Source: Haloarchaeobius sp. HME9146 | GTDB lineage: Archaea > Halobacteriota > Halobacteria > Halobacteriales > Natrialbaceae | Assembly (NCBI RefSeq): GCF_025399835.1 | Contig: NZ_JAODVR010000001.1 | Location: 1,116,001-1,180,000 of the forward strand | DNA: 64,000 nucleotides | Reading direction: 5' to 3' | Shown here: piece by piece, positions 15,903 to 61,016 of the stretch | How positions within the stretch are numbered: the first letter of the stretch is position 1 | How the letters are laid out: each line of letters starts with the position of its first letter | Notes under the pieces: model-generated | Databases searched by the model: none | The model's input: only the letters and a program-made list of their open reading frames with translations | Told to the model about the DNA's origin: nothing | Translations under genes and position numbers: made by a program

Positions 15903-16373
15903 TTACTGGATGTCGATGCTGCGGCCCGATTCCTCGTCCATCTGCGCGAAGGGCATGTGGACCTCGAGGACACCGTTGCGGTACGATGCGGTGATCTCGT
16001 CGGCGAGGATCTCACGGGGGATGCGGACGGACTCGCTCACGCGGCGCGAGCGGCGCATCCAGACGTTCTCGGCGGACTCGTCCTCTTCGCGCTCGGCGGT
16101 GATGCGGAGCATGCCGTCGTCGTAGGTGCACGAGATGTCGGACTTCTCGAAGCCGGGGATGTCCATGACGAAGACGTACATCGTGTCCTCCTCGGTGAGC
16201 ATCATGCCGGACTGCTCGAAGCTGCGACCGCCGAAGCTGGGTCGGCTCATGAAGTCACCGCGTCGGGACTCGAGTTCGGGTGTCATGCCGGTCCAGTTGC
16301 GGCGCATCTGGTCGAACATGCGGTCCATCTGCTCGAACATCGAGTTCATGTCGTCGAATCTCTTGAAGCTCAT
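15903..16373 (-). CDS. hsp20: Hsp20/alpha-crystallin small heat shock protein, short form
   Basis: A 156-residue small heat shock protein: a Met/Phe-rich N-terminal helix (about 1-28), a short Arg/Ser linker (about 29-57) and an alpha-crystallin domain (about 60-156) with family strands Asp-Ile-Pro-Gly-Phe and Gly-Val-Leu-Glu-Val. Small Hsps hold unfolding proteins in an ATP-independent way. The C-terminal Ile-x-Ile oligomer anchor appears as Ile-Asp-Ile at 153-155. It is the last of three consecutive Hsp20 genes on the minus strand, each after its own gap. A TATA-like GTTTATATCC lies 28-37 bases before the ATG. Confidence 0.93.
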   Translation of the reverse strand: MSFKRFDDMNSMFEQMDRMFDQMRRNWTGMTPELESRRGDFMSRPSFGGRSFEQSGMMLTEEDTMYVFVMDIPGFEKSDISCTYDDGMLRITAEREEDESAENVWMRRSRRVSESVRIPREILADEITASYRNGVLEVHMPFAQMDEESGRSIDIQ

Positions 16374-16400
16374 AGTACTCACCCATTGTACCACGCATAA

Positions 16401-16410
16401 GGATATAAAC
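16401..16410 (-). promoter_or_regulatory. TATA-like box of the short Hsp20 gene
   Basis: Minus-strand GTTTATATCC lies 28-37 bases before the ATG at 16373, the expected box A distance for a short-leader transcript. The surrounding 60 bp are unusually AT-rich for this genome. Confidence 0.55.
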
Positions 16411-16592
16411 ATATGTGGATAGTTGTTAGCACGCTTCTTTCCCGTACAAACTCAGAGAACGCAGAATTCGTGACCGGAAACGCACGTATCTCCGTGGTGG
16501 GTGGTTCTCACCGTACCCGGGTTCCATCGCTCGGGGACCGTGACGAACACTCAGAAAAATGGCATCGGTCGGGAGTGGTCGCGGCCGCCTCC

Positions 16593-17387
16593 TCAGTCGC
16601 GGATGGTGATGGACTGGCCGTCACGACCCTCGCTCCCGGCGACGGGCATGCGGACCTCGAGGATGCCCCGACGGTAGGAGGCCGTGATATCGTCGACCGT
16701 GACCGGGCGCGGCAGCGGGACGCGCTCGTTCACGCGGCGCGGGCGGCGCATCCAGACGTTCTCGGCGTCCTCGCTCGCCTCGCGGTAGGCGTCGATGTAG
16801 AAGACGCCGTCCTCGTAGGTGCACTCGATGTCCGAGCGCTCGAAGCCGGGCAGCTCGCAGATGCAGACGAACTCGCCGTCGACCTCGCGGAGCTCGTAGC
16901 GACGACCCGCGTCGACGGGGTAGCCCGCGTACTCGCCGCGCTCACCGCGACCGCGGCCGCGGCCGTCGTAACGGTCGTCGTATCGGCTGTCGTCCCGCCC
17001 CTCGGGACGGTAGTCCGGGGCGTCGCGGCCGTAGTCGAACCCGCCGAAGCCCGGTCGGAACCGGAACGCCGGTGCCGGACCGAACGGGGAGAACCCGCCT
17101 CGAGCGCCACTCGGGTACTCGCCGTCGTAGCCCTCACGACCGCGATAGTCGCCGCCTCGGCGATACTCCTCACCACCCCGTCGTGGATACGACGCGTCGC
17201 GTCGGCGGTCGTCCCACTCCTCGAAGAATCGCGGCAGCTCACCTCGTCGTCCCCCGGTCGGGTCGGCCTCGCCCAGCATCCAGGGCGCGTTGGCCCGCAT
17301 CACGTCGTACGTCCGTCCCATCTGGTCGTAGAACCGGTTCAGCTGGTCGTACATGTACTCCATGTCGGTGGGATTGTAGGTCGCCAT
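16593..17387 (-). CDS. Hsp20 protein with RG/Tyr-rich linker, middle form
   Basis: A 264-residue Hsp20 relative: N-terminal helix with a Met-Tyr-Asp-Gln-Leu-Asn-Arg-Phe type motif (about 10-30), a disordered linker (about 50-165) rich in Arg-Gly, Tyr-Arg, Gly and Pro, and an alpha-crystallin domain (about 166-264) with Glu-Leu-Pro-Gly-Phe and Gly-Ile-Leu-Glu-Val strands. It ends Ile-Thr-Ile-Arg-Asp. The start at 17387 (Met-Ala-Thr-Tyr) is chosen over ATG 17393 because the long-form neighbour starts the same way. The domain is nearly identical in sequence style to that of the long form, implying gene duplication. The linker composition resembles RGG condensate-forming segments. Confidence 0.88.
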   Translation of the reverse strand: MATYNPTDMEYMYDQLNRFYDQMGRTYDVMRANAPWMLGEADPTGGRRGELPRFFEEWDDRRRDASYPRRGGEEYRRGGDYRGREGYDGEYPSGARGGFSPFGPAPAFRFRPGFGGFDYGRDAPDYRPEGRDDSRYDDRYDGRGRGRGERGEYAGYPVDAGRRYELREVDGEFVCICELPGFERSDIECTYEDGVFYIDAYREASEDAENVWMRRPRRVNERVPLPRPVTVDDITASYRRGILEVRMPVAGSEGRDGQSITIRD

Positions 17388-17616
17388 AGCCATGCCAAAC
17401 TTCGAAACCTAAGCGCATAGTTACAACCGTTGACTACACAAACCGTTGCAAACGGGCTAAAAAAGGCACGAAGAGGGTTGCATGTTTTATACTATAGAAT
17501 TATTGTCCAATCTGTTCTGCTCCATAGCTGACGAACATGTTGCTGTTCGAAAACGCGATAGTGACCGCTCGCCGGCGGTGTCTCTCACAAAAATATCGTG
17601 TCCGGTCGGACGGGAC

Positions 17617-18921
17617 TCAGTCGCGGATGGTGATGACCTGGCCCTTGCGGCGGTCGCGGCCGGCGACGGGCATGCGGACCTCAAGGATGCCCTTGCGGTA
17701 CGACGCGGTGAAGCCCTCGACGTCGACGGGGCGCGGGACCGGAATGCGCTCGCTGACGCGGCGGGACCGGCGCATCCAGACGTTGTCGGCATCGCGGCGA
17801 CCCTCGCGGGCGGCGTCGATGTAGAAGACGCCATCCTCGTAGGTGCACTCGATGTCTGATCGCTCGAAGCCGGGCAGCTCGCAGATGCAGACGAACTCGC
17901 CGTCGACCTCGCGGAGCTCGTAGCGGCGGCCCATCTCGACGGCCGAGTCGCTGTAGTCCATCATCTCACGGCCACGCATGTACTCGCCCTCGGGGCGGTA
18001 GTCGGCCTCGGCACGGCGGTAGTCGCCGCGGAACTCGTTGCGGCGGCCGCGGTAGTCACTGCGGTAGTCGCCACGGGGGTAGTACTCGCTGTACGGGTAG
18101 CTCATGCCCCGGAACCCGTCGCGCGGGTAGGTGTAGTCGCCGCGGGGGTAGTACTCACCGCGGTAGTCGCTGCGGTAGTCACCACTGTAGTCGTCGCCGC
18201 GGGAGTAGTCCATGCCACGGTAGTCGGCGCGCGGGTAGTACTCACCGCGGTAGTCGCCTCGGTACTCGCTGCGGCGGCCTCGCGGGTAGTACTCACCGCG
18301 GTAGTCGCCGCGCGGGTAGTCCATGCCGCGGTACTCGCCACGGTAGTCGTCGCCGCGGAACTCGCTGCGGCGGCCTCGCGGGTAGTACTCGCTGCGGTAG
18401 TCGCCGCGCGGGTAGTCCATGCCACGGGAGTCGGCGCGGTAGTCGCTGCGGTAGTCGGCGCGGTAGTCGCTGCGGTAGTCGGCGCCACGGTACTCGCTGC
18501 GGTAGTCGCCGCGCGGGTAGTAGTCCATACCACGGGAGTCGGCGCGGTAGTCGCCGCGCGGGTAGTAGTCCATGCCGCGGTATTCGCTGCGGTAGTCGCC
18601 GCGCGGGTAGTAGTCCATGCCACGGTAGTCGGCGCGTGGGTAGTACTCGCTACGTGCTCCGTACCGGTAGTCACCGCGTTCGGACTCGTATCCTGGGCGC
18701 GAGCCCTCGTAGGATCGTCGCGGATAGGACTCGCCCGTCCGTCGGCTGTCCCATTCCTCGAAGAAGCGGGGCATGTCGTCGGCCCGTCGGCGGTCACCGG
18801 CGGGGGCGTAGTCGCGGCCGTAGTCGGGACGCATCGCGTCGTATGTGCGGCCCATTCGGTCGCTGAAGCGGTTCATCTGATCGTACATGAAGTCCATGTC
18901 GGACGGAGTGTAGGTCGCCAT
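17617..18921 (-). CDS. Hsp20 protein with long Tyr/Arg/Asp repeat linker
   Basis: A 434-residue protein. The N-terminal helix (about 9-30, Met-Tyr-Asp-Gln-Met-Asn-Arg-Phe) and the C-terminal alpha-crystallin domain (about 330-434) match the middle-form neighbour. Between them lie roughly 290 residues built almost only from Tyr, Arg, Asp, Gly, Ser, Glu, Met and Pro, with no predicted hydrophobic core. A 15-residue unit, GMDYYPRGDYRSEYR, repeats perfectly or nearly so, then degenerates. The linker is surely disordered; dense Tyr and Arg suggest cation-pi stickers that could drive condensation in high salt (inference). ATG at 18921 has a TATA-like box 30-39 bp upstream. Typical archaeal Hsp20 proteins are about 150 residues. 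Confidence 0.88.
   Translation of the reverse strand: MATYTPSDMDFMYDQMNRFSDRMGRTYDAMRPDYGRDYAPAGDRRRADDMPRFFEEWDSRRTGESYPRRSYEGSRPGYESERGDYRYGARSEYYPRADYRGMDYYPRGDYRSEYRGMDYYPRGDYRADSRGMDYYPRGDYRSEYRGADYRSDYRADYRSDYRADSRGMDYPRGDYRSEYYPRGRRSEFRGDDYRGEYRGMDYPRGDYRGEYYPRGRRSEYRGDYRGEYYPRADYRGMDYSRGDDYSGDYRSDYRGEYYPRGDYTYPRDGFRGMSYPYSEYYPRGDYRSDYRGRRNEFRGDYRRAEADYRPEGEYMRGREMMDYSDSAVEMGRRYELREVDGEFVCICELPGFERSDIECTYEDGVFYIDAAREGRRDADNVWMRRSRRVSERIPVPRPVDVEGFTASYRKGILEVRMPVAGRDRRKGQVITIRD
18500..18645. repeat. 45-bp direct repeats coding a 15-residue Tyr/Arg unit
   Basis: The string GCGCGGGTAG recurs exactly at 18511, 18556 and 18601, giving a 45-bp period, three near-perfect copies inside the long Hsp20 gene. 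Less regular copies of the same blocks continue down to about 18050, including a longer unit repeated near 18240-18320 and 18330-18420. The array stays in frame throughout. Confidence 0.85.
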
Positions 18922-18950
18922 GGGTACCCCAACGTACGAACCATAAGAAG

Positions 18951-18960
18951 ATAAATACAT
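18951..18960 (-). promoter_or_regulatory. TATA-like box of the long Hsp20 gene
   Basis: Minus-strand ATGTATTTAT lies 30-39 bases before the ATG at 18921. About 15 bases further upstream is CGGTTTACACAGTTCA, which resembles CGGTTTGTGTAGTCA in the upstream region of the middle Hsp20 gene (near 17430-17445), a possible shared element. Confidence 0.5.
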
Positions 18961-19028
18961 CTGTGAACTGTGTAAACCGCAGACACAGTGCTCGAAAATG
19001 GCTGTTCTTGGGATATCAGGTAGTTGTT

Positions 19029-20426
19029 TTATAACTTATTTGTAGCATCTCGGAACAGGCCGTCGAGTATCTCCGGCGTGGTCGGGTGGTACGCGCGGTC
19101 GGGAAGCTCTCGCACGTCGAGTTCCATCTCGACCGCGAGCTGGAGCGTCTTCGCCATCACGTCCGCGTGGTAGTGCAGCCCCTGGTAGCCGAGGACGGTC
19201 CCGTCGTTCGCGTCGACCACGAGGGAGGCCAGCCCCTCGGGCACGTCCTTCGTCTTGAACACGCCGTCGTCGCTGGCCTCGCGCGAGACGTGGATGTAGT
19301 CCAGTCCCGCCTCCTCGGCGGAGAACTTCGAGTGGCCGACACGGGCGAACGGGTAGACGCCGAGGCCGGAGAAGATGACGTGGTGGTGGACGTTCTCGTA
19401 CTCGGTGAGGTCGTCCCCGCGGGCGTGTGCGAGGATGTTGTCCGCGGCGGTGAACCCCTGCTCCTTGGCGACGTGGAGGATGGGCTCTTTCCCGTTCACG
19501 TCACCGACGACGAAGACGTGGTCGTCCTCGCGCGCCTGCATGGTGTCGCGGACCCAGCCCGCCTCGGGGTCGAGGCTCGTCGCGTCCAGGCCGAGGCGGT
19601 CGAGGTTCGGTCGGCGGCCGGTGAACAGGAACAGTTCGTCGGCCTCGACGACGGTCTCCTCGCCGTCCTCCTCGAGGTACAGTCGGACGCCGCCGTCGTC
19701 GGTCTGTTCGATGCGCTTCTCGTAGGCGTGGCGGCGCACGTCGATGTCCCAGTGCTCCTCGTAGATGTCGAGCGCGGCGTCGCCGAAGGGGGCGTCCGCC
19801 TCGTCGATGGGGCGCGCGTCGTGCTCGACCACGGTCAGGGAGGTGCCACCGGCCTCGGCGATGTAGGGGACGAGTTCCATCCCGATGTAGCCGAAGCCCA
19901 TGACGATGCCCGAGTCCGGGAACTCGGTCGCATCGAGTATCTCCGAGCTGGTCATGAAGTCGACCGACTCCATGCCCGGCAGCTCGGGGACGTTCATGAC
20001 CGAGCCGGTCGCGACCACCACGTAGTCCGGCTCGATGGTCTCGCCGCCGACCGCGAGCACCCGGTCGTCGACGAACTGGGCGGTGTCGTGGACGAACTCG
20101 ACGTTCTCGCGCTCGGCCAGGTCGTGGATGGAGTCGCGGCGGTGACCGGCCCACGAGAGGGTGTGCTCGTTCTTCTGCTCGACGACGGCCTCGAGGTCGA
20201 TCTCGGGCAGGTCACCCGCCAGTCGGTGGTCGTGTCGCGCCTGGAAGCGGTGTGCGCCCGCGGAGAGGACCTCTTTCGAGGGCATACAGCCACGGAGGAT
20301 ACAGAGGCCGCCGCCCGGCTCGCCGTCGTCGATGAGGGTCAACTCGATGCCGGGCTCGTCGGCCAGCTCGCCGGCGACCGCAGCGCCGGCACTCCCGTAC
20401 GCGCCGATGATAGCGACGTGTGTCAT
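19029..20426 (-). CDS. FAD/NAD(P) disulfide oxidoreductase (dihydrolipoamide dehydrogenase-like)
   Basis: A 465-residue class I flavin disulfide reductase. The FAD dinucleotide fold starts at residue 4, but its motif reads Gly-Ala-Tyr-Gly-Ser-Ala-Gly. The redox-active pair is Cys42-x4-Cys47 in the usual Gly-Gly-x-Cys context, followed by Pro-Ser-Lys. The C-terminal dimer-interface catalytic base, His-Pro-Thr-x-x-Glu, is intact near residue 446. The NAD(P)-binding motif near 170 reads Gly-Phe-Gly-Tyr-Ile-Gly. Candidate substrates include lipoamide, mycothiol-like thiols, gamma-glutamylcysteine or mercuric ion; the sequence does not decide. No 2-oxoacid dehydrogenase subunits are nearby. ATG 20426 starts exactly at the FAD strand. 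Confidence 0.88.
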   Translation of the reverse strand: MTHVAIIGAYGSAGAAVAGELADEPGIELTLIDDGEPGGGLCILRGCMPSKEVLSAGAHRFQARHDHRLAGDLPEIDLEAVVEQKNEHTLSWAGHRRDSIHDLAERENVEFVHDTAQFVDDRVLAVGGETIEPDYVVVATGSVMNVPELPGMESVDFMTSSEILDATEFPDSGIVMGFGYIGMELVPYIAEAGGTSLTVVEHDARPIDEADAPFGDAALDIYEEHWDIDVRRHAYEKRIEQTDDGGVRLYLEEDGEETVVEADELFLFTGRRPNLDRLGLDATSLDPEAGWVRDTMQAREDDHVFVVGDVNGKEPILHVAKEQGFTAADNILAHARGDDLTEYENVHHHVIFSGLGVYPFARVGHSKFSAEEAGLDYIHVSREASDDGVFKTKDVPEGLASLVVDANDGTVLGYQGLHYHADVMAKTLQLAVEMELDVRELPDRAYHPTTPEILDGLFRDATNKL

Positions 20427-20484: not shown

Positions 20485-20964
20485 CTAATCGAACAGTCGG
20501 GACCGTGCCGCGACAGCGTCGATGGCACTCGGCTGTGCCTTCCGGACGATATACACGTCGTAGCGGTCGTCGGCCGCGATGGTGCTCCCGACGCTCCGGA
20601 GCGAGGACACGAGCCGGCCCGCATCGTCGCTCCCGACGAACACCAGCGAGGCGTCCAGCTCGCGGGCGAATCTACGGACCTTCGAAGCGATGGTGCCCGC
20701 TGTCGCGTACCGGTCCGTCAGGACGTACTCGAACCGTGCATCGGGAGCTAGCTCGCGGATATCGGCGCGAACCCGCCCGACGACCGCATCGATGTCGAAC
20801 GACTCGTCAGCCCCGAGCCAGCCGTGCTCTCGAGCGTATCGCTGGTCCTTCGGGACCACCGTCACCACGATTACGTCCTCGTCTGTTACCTCCGCGAAGC
20901 CCTCGGCGCGGTCGAGTGCCGTCCGCGCCAGCTCCCCACCATCGTACGGTACGACGAACGTCAT
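20485..20964 (-). CDS. universal stress protein-like, divergent
   Basis: A 159-residue alpha/beta protein with the UspA strand pattern: N-terminal Val-Val-Pro-Tyr-Asp-Gly, an Ile-Val-Val-Thr-Val-Val strand, and a later Leu-Val-Phe-Val-Gly-Ser-Asp strand. The ATP-binding Gly-x2-Gly-x9-Gly-Ser motif is only partly kept (Gly-Ser-Asp-Asp-Ala-Gly then Ser-Val-Gly-Ser-Thr), so nucleotide binding is uncertain. Its TATA-like box reads CGATTTATCG at 20987-20996. It lies immediately upstream of the flavin disulfide reductase on the same strand with 58 bp between, suggesting shared expression. Confidence 0.85.
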   Translation of the reverse strand: MTFVVPYDGGELARTALDRAEGFAEVTDEDVIVVTVVPKDQRYAREHGWLGADESFDIDAVVGRVRADIRELAPDARFEYVLTDRYATAGTIASKVRRFARELDASLVFVGSDDAGRLVSSLRSVGSTIAADDRYDVYIVRKAQPSAIDAVAARSRLFD

Positions 20965-59161: not shown

Positions 59162-60021
59162 CCGACCCCGACCTGCTCGACGGTGCCATCGACATGCACG
59201 TCCACACCGCACCGGACCTCATCGAGCGCTTCGAGAGCGACGTGGACCTGGCCCGCGACGCCCGCGAGGCCGGGATGCGCGCCATCCTCGTCAAGAGCCA
59301 CGTCGTCCCGACCGCGGGACGTGTCGACCTCGTGAACGAGGCGGTCGGCGACGAGTTGCTGTTCGGCGGCGTCGCCTGCAACGGCGGCGTCGGCGGGCTC
59401 AACCGCGACGCCGTCGAGGCCGCACTGGAACTCGGTGCGAAGGTTGTGTGGCTCCCGACCGCCTGGAGTGCGAACCACGCCTCGCAGGCGCGCGAGTCGG
59501 GGGTCGAGCGATTCGTCGGCCATCGCGTCCCCGACGAGGACGAGGAGATTCCGGTCGCCCGAGACGGCGAGGTCACGCCCGCGACCCGTCAGGTGATGGA
59601 CCTCGTCGACGAGTACGACGCGGTGCTCGGGACGGGTCACGCCGCCCCCGACGAGATAGAGACCGTGGCCGAGGCCTGCGCGGACGCGGGCGTGGACTGC
59701 CTCGTGAACCACCCCTGCTTCCGCGTGGTCGACGTCTCCCTGGAGCGCCAGGAGCGCCTCGCCGAACTTGGGGCGGTCATGGAGTACTGCGCCTACGCGG
59801 TCCAGACGACCGAGGGCCACACCATCGAGCGCGTCGCCGAGGCGGTCGAACGTGTCGGCCCCGAGAACGCGGTGCTGGCGACCGACTTCGGGCAGGCCGA
59901 GAACCCGCCCGTCCCCGGATTACGCGAGTTCGCCGAGGCCGTCGTCGACGCGGGGGTCCCCCGCGAGACGGTCCGACAGTGTCTCACCGAGACCCCGGTC
60001 CGGCTGCTCCGGCTGGACTGA
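59158..60021 (+). CDS. DUF6282-family amidohydrolase-like protein
   Basis: A 287-residue TIM-barrel protein with the metal motif Asp-Met-His-Val-His-Thr (12-17) and further His in Lys-Ser-His-Val, Gly-Thr-Gly-His-Ala and Val-Asn-His-Pro-Cys, plus Asp in Ala-Thr-Asp-Phe-Gly. It matches DUF6282, a group of PHP/amidohydrolase-like proteins with no established reaction. It overlaps the preceding dehydrogenase in ATGA, so the two are co-translated and likely act on the same compound, for example by hydrolysing a lactone or amide product (inference). Confidence 0.85.
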   Translation: MTDPDLLDGAIDMHVHTAPDLIERFESDVDLARDAREAGMRAILVKSHVVPTAGRVDLVNEAVGDELLFGGVACNGGVGGLNRDAVEAALELGAKVVWLPTAWSANHASQARESGVERFVGHRVPDEDEEIPVARDGEVTPATRQVMDLVDEYDAVLGTGHAAPDEIETVAEACADAGVDCLVNHPCFRVVDVSLERQERLAELGAVMEYCAYAVQTTEGHTIERVAEAVERVGPENAVLATDFGQAENPPVPGLREFAEAVVDAGVPRETVRQCLTETPVRLLRLD

Positions 60022-60098
60022 TTCTTCCACCCCCACTTCAATCGTTTACACGTTGTCGTCAAGCCTCATGGGTGGTATCCGCACAAGAACCGAGTGCA

Positions 60099-60920
60099 AT
60101 GGCAGACTACCCCGTCGTCAACGGACACCACCACCTCGGCAACGAAGACGCAGAGACCGACCGGACCTTCGAGTGGTCCGAGAGCGTCGAACAGGTCATC
60201 GACGCCATGGACGAGAACAAGGTCGACGCGACCATCCTCCAGCCGCTCGGCGGCGAGACGGACGAGTCCGTCTCGGAGGTCCACGACCAGATCTACCAGG
60301 CGAGCCAGGACTACCCCGGGCGCATCTTCGGCACCGCCGCGGTCAACCCACACCTCGGCACCGAGTTCGTCCACGAAGAGATCACGCGCTGTGTGCAGGA
60401 ACTCGACTTCAAGTTCGTCAAGCTCCACACGCTCGCGTGGGGCGTCGACCCGACCTCCGACATCGCCTACGACGTCTACGACGCCTGTGTCGAGAACGAC
60501 GTGCCCGTGATGGTCCACACCGGCCCGCACGGCATGCCGTTCTCGGTCCCCGGCATGTACATGGACGTCGCCGACGACTACCCGGACCTGCCCATCATCT
60601 TCGCCCACATGGGCGGGGCATACACCCTCACGCAGGAGGCCATCCAGATGGCCGCCCGCTGGGACAACATCTACCTCGACACCACGCTCGCGATGAACAT
60701 GTACATCCGCCGGGCGATGGAGCGCGTCGGCGCGGAGAAGCTCCTCATGGCCGCCGAGCACTCCTCGAACATCCCGGTCGCCCTCGAGAAGATCAACTGC
60801 ATCGGGGCCGACGAGGAGCAGAAGGCGAAGATCCTCGGCCAGAACGCCATCGACCTCTACGGCCTCGACGTGGCCAAGCAGGACTGGGACGAGGTCGAGG
60901 CCGCCCCGGCCGACGACTGA
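60099..60920 (+). CDS. amidohydrolase family protein (amidohydrolase-2 type)
   Basis: A 273-residue metal hydrolase with Gly-His-His-His-Leu-Gly near the N-terminus, His in Val-His-Thr-Gly-Pro and Phe-Ala-His-Met-Gly-Gly, and a C-terminal Gly-Gln-Asn-Ala-Ile-Asp-Leu-Tyr typical of the amidohydrolase-2 group. The usual Gly-Ser-Asp metal ligand is replaced by Ala-Glu-His-Ser-Ser, so the final Asp ligand is missing or moved. Substrate unknown. A TATA-like TTTACA (60045-60050) 49 bases upstream suggests its own promoter, although it sits inside the catabolic run. Confidence 0.85.
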   Translation: MADYPVVNGHHHLGNEDAETDRTFEWSESVEQVIDAMDENKVDATILQPLGGETDESVSEVHDQIYQASQDYPGRIFGTAAVNPHLGTEFVHEEITRCVQELDFKFVKLHTLAWGVDPTSDIAYDVYDACVENDVPVMVHTGPHGMPFSVPGMYMDVADDYPDLPIIFAHMGGAYTLTQEAIQMAARWDNIYLDTTLAMNMYIRRAMERVGAEKLLMAAEHSSNIPVALEKINCIGADEEQKAKILGQNAIDLYGLDVAKQDWDEVEAAPADD

Positions 60921-61016
60921 CGCTCTCTCCCTGTCACGCCCCACCACTGTCGTCCCTGTCGATTCGCCCGCTCCCATCGACTCACTCCTCCGTGTCTGTT
61001 CCAGCTCGTTTCGACC

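Follow-up and report, generated by a model that had tools for sequence, protein, structure and literature searches.

Tandem small heat shock protein genes with long Tyr/Arg-rich linkers in Haloarchaeobius sp. HME9146: candidate self-associating chaperones for molar salt

Why should a haloarchaeon carry, side by side, one Hsp20 protein of ordinary length and two others in which long Tyr/Arg-rich segments precede the alpha-crystallin domain, and what could such segments do in a hypersaline cell? The question arises from a stretch of 64,000 nucleotides of Haloarchaeobius sp. HME9146 (contig NZ_JAODVR010000001.1, positions 1,116,001–1,180,000; hereafter the window, to which coordinates refer), in which three consecutive minus-strand genes, here called A, B and C, encode small heat shock proteins (small Hsps). 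Gene A (15903..16373) encodes a short Hsp20 of 156 amino acids (aa), B (16593..17393) one of 266 aa with an RG/Tyr-rich linker predicted to be disordered, and C (17617..18921) one of 434 aa with a linker made of Tyr/Arg/Asp/Gly repeats. The original prediction, made from the DNA letters alone, had proposed three such genes sharing an N-terminal helix and an alpha-crystallin domain, and both the open reading frames (ORFs) and Pfam confirm them (its 264-residue B corresponds to a start at the second Met, the 266 aa being counted from the first). The PF00011 (HSP20) profile exceeds its curated cut-off at residues 61–156 of A, 170–264 of B and 338–432 of C, and the AlphaFold model of C resembles solved small Hsps in structure comparison, with E values down to 9.2e-07. 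The identity of the three genes as small Hsps, by profile and for C also by predicted fold, is secure; ATP-independent holdase activity and the formation of oligomers are presumed. The whole genome contains eight Hsp20 genes.

Measured from RFFEEWD (W27 in A) to the start of the alpha-crystallin domain, the linkers comprise 28 residues in A, 102 in B (residues 62–163, 16905..17210) and 273 in C (residues 59–331, 17929..18747), all on the minus strand, and the lengths of about 30, 115 and 290 first given for them are nearly matched when counting begins at the end of the N-terminal helix. Gene A has the plain layout of an N-terminal Met/Asp/Arg helix, its 28-aa linker, the alpha-crystallin domain and a C-terminal IDI. 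Linker Tyr amounts to 0, 10.8, and 20.5% and linker Arg to 14.3, 20.6, and 21.2% in A, B, and C, respectively, and Lys is absent from all three. The C linker contains 56 Tyr and 58 Arg in its 273 aa, together with 12.8% Asp, 7.7% Glu and 13.2% Gly, at a net charge per residue of 0.007 and an isoelectric point (pI) of 8.3, and the linkers in general are nearly charge-neutral (0.007–0.018 per residue). Their Arg and Tyr contents lie far off the background, since the candidate genes of the 64-kb window average only 6.9% Arg and 2.9% Tyr (Asp+Glu 16.8%). With no Gln and a single Asn, the C linker is not prion-like in the Asn/Gln-rich sense. Its DNA contains diverged tandem repeats with periods of 12–108 bp, the main unit, present in diverged copies, being RGMDYYPRGDYRSEY, and it has no match in the rest of its own genome, even at E 10. 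A second long form, C1 (328 aa), stands beside a short one, A1 (156 aa), as the two Hsp20 genes of this locus in congener G001; its 166-aa linker has 33 Tyr and 32 Arg (19.9 and 19.3%), no Lys and a net charge of about zero.

The linkers of B and C are predicted to be disordered, as had been supposed: the AlphaFold predicted local distance difference test (pLDDT) is below 50 across residues 63–163 of B and 63–331 of C, giving both proteins a long, presumably disordered stretch ahead of the alpha-crystallin domain. The alpha-crystallin domain blocks reach mean pLDDT values of ~80–92 in C (17620..17928, with the CIC...C cysteines and the C-terminal ITI motif) and 70–88 in B, ends excepted. The N-terminal helix is predicted at residues 6–30 of C (18748..18921, including the PRFFEEWD helix) and 8–35 of B, tentatively, the AlphaFold alignments consisting of three sequences.

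How strongly such chains might attract themselves was estimated with single-chain Monte Carlo simulations of one bead per residue, using CALVADOS-2-type parameters not validated above ~1 M salt; as checks, a non-sticky chain gave a scaling exponent (nu) of 0.607 and Sic1 a radius of gyration of 2.71 nm. With these parameters the single-chain nu was 0.29–0.36 for the C linker, 0.36–0.41 for C1 and 0.48–0.50 for B, and ~0.55 for the acidic Hsp20 linker of another genus, so that only C and C1 fall clearly below 0.5. Replacing all Tyr of C by Ser brought nu to 0.53, and replacing all Arg by Lys to 0.51. The C and C1 linkers are thus predicted to be self-attracting, disordered chains rich in Tyr and Arg stickers, and the proposal of sticker-and-spacer linkers has some support from the model for these two, with low nu and, in C, dependence on Tyr and Arg, and much less for B.

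The linkers of C and C1 share a common origin (local score 325 vs 127 ± 17 for shuffles), with different main repeat units, RGMDYYPRGDYRSEY in C and YYPRGES in C1. In their alignment 75% of Tyr and 61% of Arg are identical, compared to 26–53% for Gly, Glu, Asp, Ser and Pro; the excess of Tyr/Arg identity over the spacers is 0.27, against 0.14 ± 0.05 in shuffles, of which 1.3% reach it. This retention modestly favours selection on the stickers, as far as one species pair can tell. Between C and C1 the alpha-crystallin domain itself is under constraint, with nonsynonymous (dN) and synonymous (dS) divergences of 0.086 and 0.199. The spacing of Tyr and Arg along C is also more regular than that of 2000 shuffles. 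Differences among the repeat copies of C fall 361 times on third, 263 on second, and 231 on first codon positions, a bias too weak to serve as proof of selection.

The genus seems to hold the history of these genes. The Hsp20 locus has one copy in four congeners, two in G001 and three in the genome studied here. Upstream of C lie a pyridine nucleotide-disulphide oxidoreductase gene (MerA/lipoamide dehydrogenase-like, GGLCILRGCMPSK; 19029..20426, minus strand) and a universal stress protein (Usp) gene (20485..20964, minus strand), both of them syntenic neighbours: in G002 and G005 Usp and oxidoreductase flank the single short Hsp20, with the oxidoreductase adjoining it, G003 and G004 have the Usp gene close to theirs, and a Usp gene is found near the locus in 5/5 congeners. 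In a tree of alpha-crystallin domains A pairs with A1 (99/98), B groups with C and C1 (100/99) on a long branch of 1.0 change per column, B falls outside C + C1 (92/81), and all five form one group (91/87) that excludes the single-copy Hsp20s of the remaining congeners. This topology does not agree with the idea of linkers growing in an evolutionary series from A through B to C. Because B is set outside C + C1, it is probably older than the species split and was then lost in G001; its dating is blurred, since the B (16593–16904) and C (17620–17928) domains open with ~40 codons that encode one and the same protein sequence in almost identical DNA, with synonymous changes only, and diverge thereafter, which looks like gene conversion.

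Conservation extends to the upstream regions. That of A (16374..16451, minus strand), with a TTTATA element, is 87% identical over 78 bp to the same region of A1, and that of C (18922..18975, minus strand) is 87% identical over 54 bp to that of C1. The A and C upstream regions resemble each other, A1 and C having elements with TTTAT boxes in common (79% over 34 bp); that of B has diverged. T-runs are found downstream of B and of C, and for this reason the three genes likely belong to separate transcription units.

Beyond the genus, we searched 392 genomes of the order with the N-terminal part plus linker of the long form, and the Hsp20-linked matches came only from this genome and G001. Draws from the class (391 genomes) and phylum (393), which overlap with the order sample, yielded no further match that looks like Hsp20, the two extra matches of the phylum draw (G580 and G771) lying in open frames of 104 and 46 aa. 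A search of genome contigs with the long-form alignment matched a single, unrelated bacterial Hsp20, and plasmid and phage collections contained no long form. The 28 homologous Hsp20s from other genomes measure 152–200 aa. Several candidates were set aside: an Acaryochloris match to the linker is a hypothetical protein and not a long-form Hsp20; Hsp20 matches with open frames of 250–774 aa elsewhere in the family owe that length to spurious frames running upstream through GC-rich DNA and stand for genes of ordinary length; and weak linker matches in other genera (L047 and L048; in context L066 and L067) come from short ORFs of low complexity that lack an Hsp20 domain. In the last two, at L066 1007–1312 and L067 1152–1481, we noted short Tyr-rich tandem repeats (RTDYHSNNRNHNNYC and DYPVADYG) in unrelated haloarchaeal DNA, also without an Hsp20 domain. 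Given the one-, two- and three-gene synteny and the absence of any long Tyr/Arg linker elsewhere in the order sample, the long-linker Hsp20s are, by comparison of sequences, a genus-level innovation through local duplication and not an assembly artefact. Total absence from relatives, which would have spoken for a local artefact, does not apply, as G001 has a diverged long form, while the trait is very narrow at two species. A search of the open-access PMC literature brought up no account of archaeal small Hsps of this kind, in agreement with the original prediction, which knew of no such graded set.

Two further observations concern Hsp20s of other genera. Another genus of the family (G023–G027; L026, L030, L032 and L034) has acidic Ser/Asp/Gly linkers of ~70 aa in proteins of 193–200 aa, to judge from sequence an independent and differently composed insert at the same position; as these linkers are moderately longer, the position appears to tolerate insertions. 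In Halobacterium salinarum pNRC200 (L068) hsp5, a heat-inducible small Hsp (PMC1971269), adjoins a CDC48-type AAA ATPase near a Usp gene, and in the domain tree it falls outside the A/B/C branch.

The chaperone domains retain the family motifs. The AxxxNGxL-type motif is kept as ASYRNGVL in A and ASYRNGIL in C1, and has Arg or Lys for Asn in B (ASYRRGIL) and C (ASYRKGIL); the C-terminal IxI/V tail reads IDI in A, ITI in B and C, and ISI in C1. Each alpha-crystallin domain of B, C and C1 has three Cys (VCICELPG, then DIEC, that is CxC plus C; window 16593–16904 and 17617–17928, minus strand, and L039 8281–8592), compared to one in A and A1 and none in 28/28 relatives from other genomes. A redox switch or a metal site is possible, and the adjoining disulphide oxidoreductase suggests redox control of assembly, only a lead because this enzyme also adjoins Cys-free Hsp20s in congeners. 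The PRFFEEWD segment (C residues ~48–58, 18748–18780), tentatively predicted from the three-sequence alignments as a short second helix, is conserved only in the long-linker forms B, C and C1 and is missing in A; it could be a groove-binding or assembly motif.

What, then, might the long linkers do? Contacts between Arg and Tyr are strong at low and at high salt, and FUS condensed again above 1.5 M KCl (PMC7889641); at high salt Arg-rich chains condense and Lys-rich chains do not (PMC9705477). At high salt the contact is, in the authors' account, a hydrophobic one and not cation-pi; the literature supports the argument first made for these linkers as to the persistence of contacts, less so as to their nature. 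We propose that A, B and C arose through duplication at one stress locus within the genus, A retaining the ordinary short form, and that the ancestor of B and C gained a disordered insert between the N-terminal helix and the alpha-crystallin domain, which would have grown by repeat duplication into Tyr/Arg stickers with Asp/Glu/Ser/Gly/Pro spacers. The alpha-crystallin domain and IxI tail would still build oligomers, probably mixed with A, and each oligomer would thereby display many copies of the insert. At 2–4 M KCl, with charges screened, Tyr–Arg, Tyr–Tyr and Arg–Arg contacts should persist; C, presumably induced by stress, could drive self-association into condensates holding unfolding clients, like yeast Hsp42, with B perhaps acting as a weaker partner or tuner. 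We regard a lineage-specific sequestrase-type small Hsp, self-associating through Tyr/Arg stickers in molar salt, as an evenly balanced proposition.

A number of points weigh against it. A shuffled C linker collapses equally in the chain model (nu 0.309), so that the predicted self-attraction depends on composition and length and not on the order of residues, and the model is itself limited to a single chain and to parameters not validated at molar salt. With B near neutral, a grading of stickers would hold only partly. Tyr shows no such even spacing in C1, and repeat duplication alone may account for it in C. Lys is scarce in this proteome generally, and selection for function is hard to tell from drift in a trait known from two species only.

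Neutral repeat growth is the main rival, slippage in GC-rich DNA having inflated a Tyr/Arg-rich seed without function and left an ordinary or dispensable small Hsp. It would account for a linker found in two species only, with lengths varying between 102, 166 and 273 residues and tandem repeats of 12–108 bp visible at the DNA level, for the long B/C branch and for repeat copies that differ without strong third-position bias; moreover, a linker grown from repeats retains the composition of its seed by default. Yet frame and composition have been held in two species through separate repeat expansions, Tyr and Arg are conserved above the spacers beyond shuffles, and both the alpha-crystallin domain (C vs C1) and the upstream elements (87%) are constrained or conserved, and we consider neutral growth somewhat unlikely. 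Tyr/Arg-rich chains are also able to bind unfolded protein surfaces, and the insert might be dispersed within the oligomer as a client-binding or solubility arm, a salt-tolerant holdase arm for hydrophobic or aromatic clients that forms no condensates. The N-terminal region is indeed the variable part of small Hsps (PMC9133787) and the B linker is near theta conditions in the chain model, but such an arm is at odds with the self-attraction predicted for C and C1, which oligomerisation would multiply, and we hold it to be distinctly improbable. An RG-rich insert could instead bind RNA, DNA or polyphosphate and direct the chaperone there, as Dictyostelium HSP48, stabilised by polyphosphate and equipped with a basic disordered region (PMC6584373), might suggest; the near-neutral linkers (0.007–0.018 per residue, against a pI of 10.69 for the HSP48 region) and the weakening of ionic RNA binding by molar salt make this very unlikely. 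Finally, repeats are easily misassembled and this GC-rich DNA has long overlapping ORFs, but an assembly error or spurious ORF is hardly credible and in the main refuted by the homologous long form at the same place in a second, separately assembled genome, the normal codon-position GC and a frame that continues into the conserved Hsp20 domain.

The proposed condensing chaperone can be placed among known systems. Haloarchaeal Hsp20s (~150–200 aa, PF00011) share its N-terminal MDxMF helix, alpha-crystallin domain and IxI tail, and the single copies of congeners its Usp/oxidoreductase neighbourhood; ordinary forms differ from the long ones in their short linker, without long insert or Cys (28 relatives, 152–200 aa). 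Among small Hsps with long disordered arms, yeast Hsp42 drives sequestration; ahead of its alpha-crystallin domain it likewise has a long disordered region, which promotes the deposition of misfolded proteins (reviewed in PMC13287201). This region combines a prion-like domain with a second disordered part, whereas the insert of C is built of Tyr/Arg/Asp/Gly repeats, free of Lys and almost devoid of Asn and Gln, and is placed, unlike in Hsp42, after a conserved helix and in a hypersaline cell; outside the Hsp20 domain the comparison is one of architecture. With a similar architecture but no prion-like composition, C is not classed as an Hsp42-type member. An archaeal sequestrase independent of Hsp42, with condensation tuned to molar salt and maybe gated by the three Cys and the oxidoreductase, is possible, and we advance it tentatively. 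HSP48 is also an alpha-crystallin protein whose disordered region is needed for condensates (PMC6584373), although this region is C-terminal and basic and works with polyphosphate, while the C linker is internal and near neutral (pI 8.3). FUS-type proteins (PMC7889641) and squid reflectin (PMC11927725), the latter driven by salt to condense, have disordered chains rich in Tyr and Arg whose condensation extends to high salt; in comparison C has no RNA-binding domain and carries its stickers fused to a chaperone domain, a resemblance of composition only.

Tyr/Arg condensation at high salt has been studied mainly with human and model proteins in unnatural salt, and 2–4 M would be the natural setting of C. 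The short-form paralogues and the congeners without insert provide built-in controls, and one, two or three genes at a single locus represent a recent origin of a sticker region, a test of how sticky disorder arises and persists. Elsewhere in the window, where no candidate gene lies between 60018 and 61017, positions 60001–61000 show its strongest negative GC skew (-0.14).

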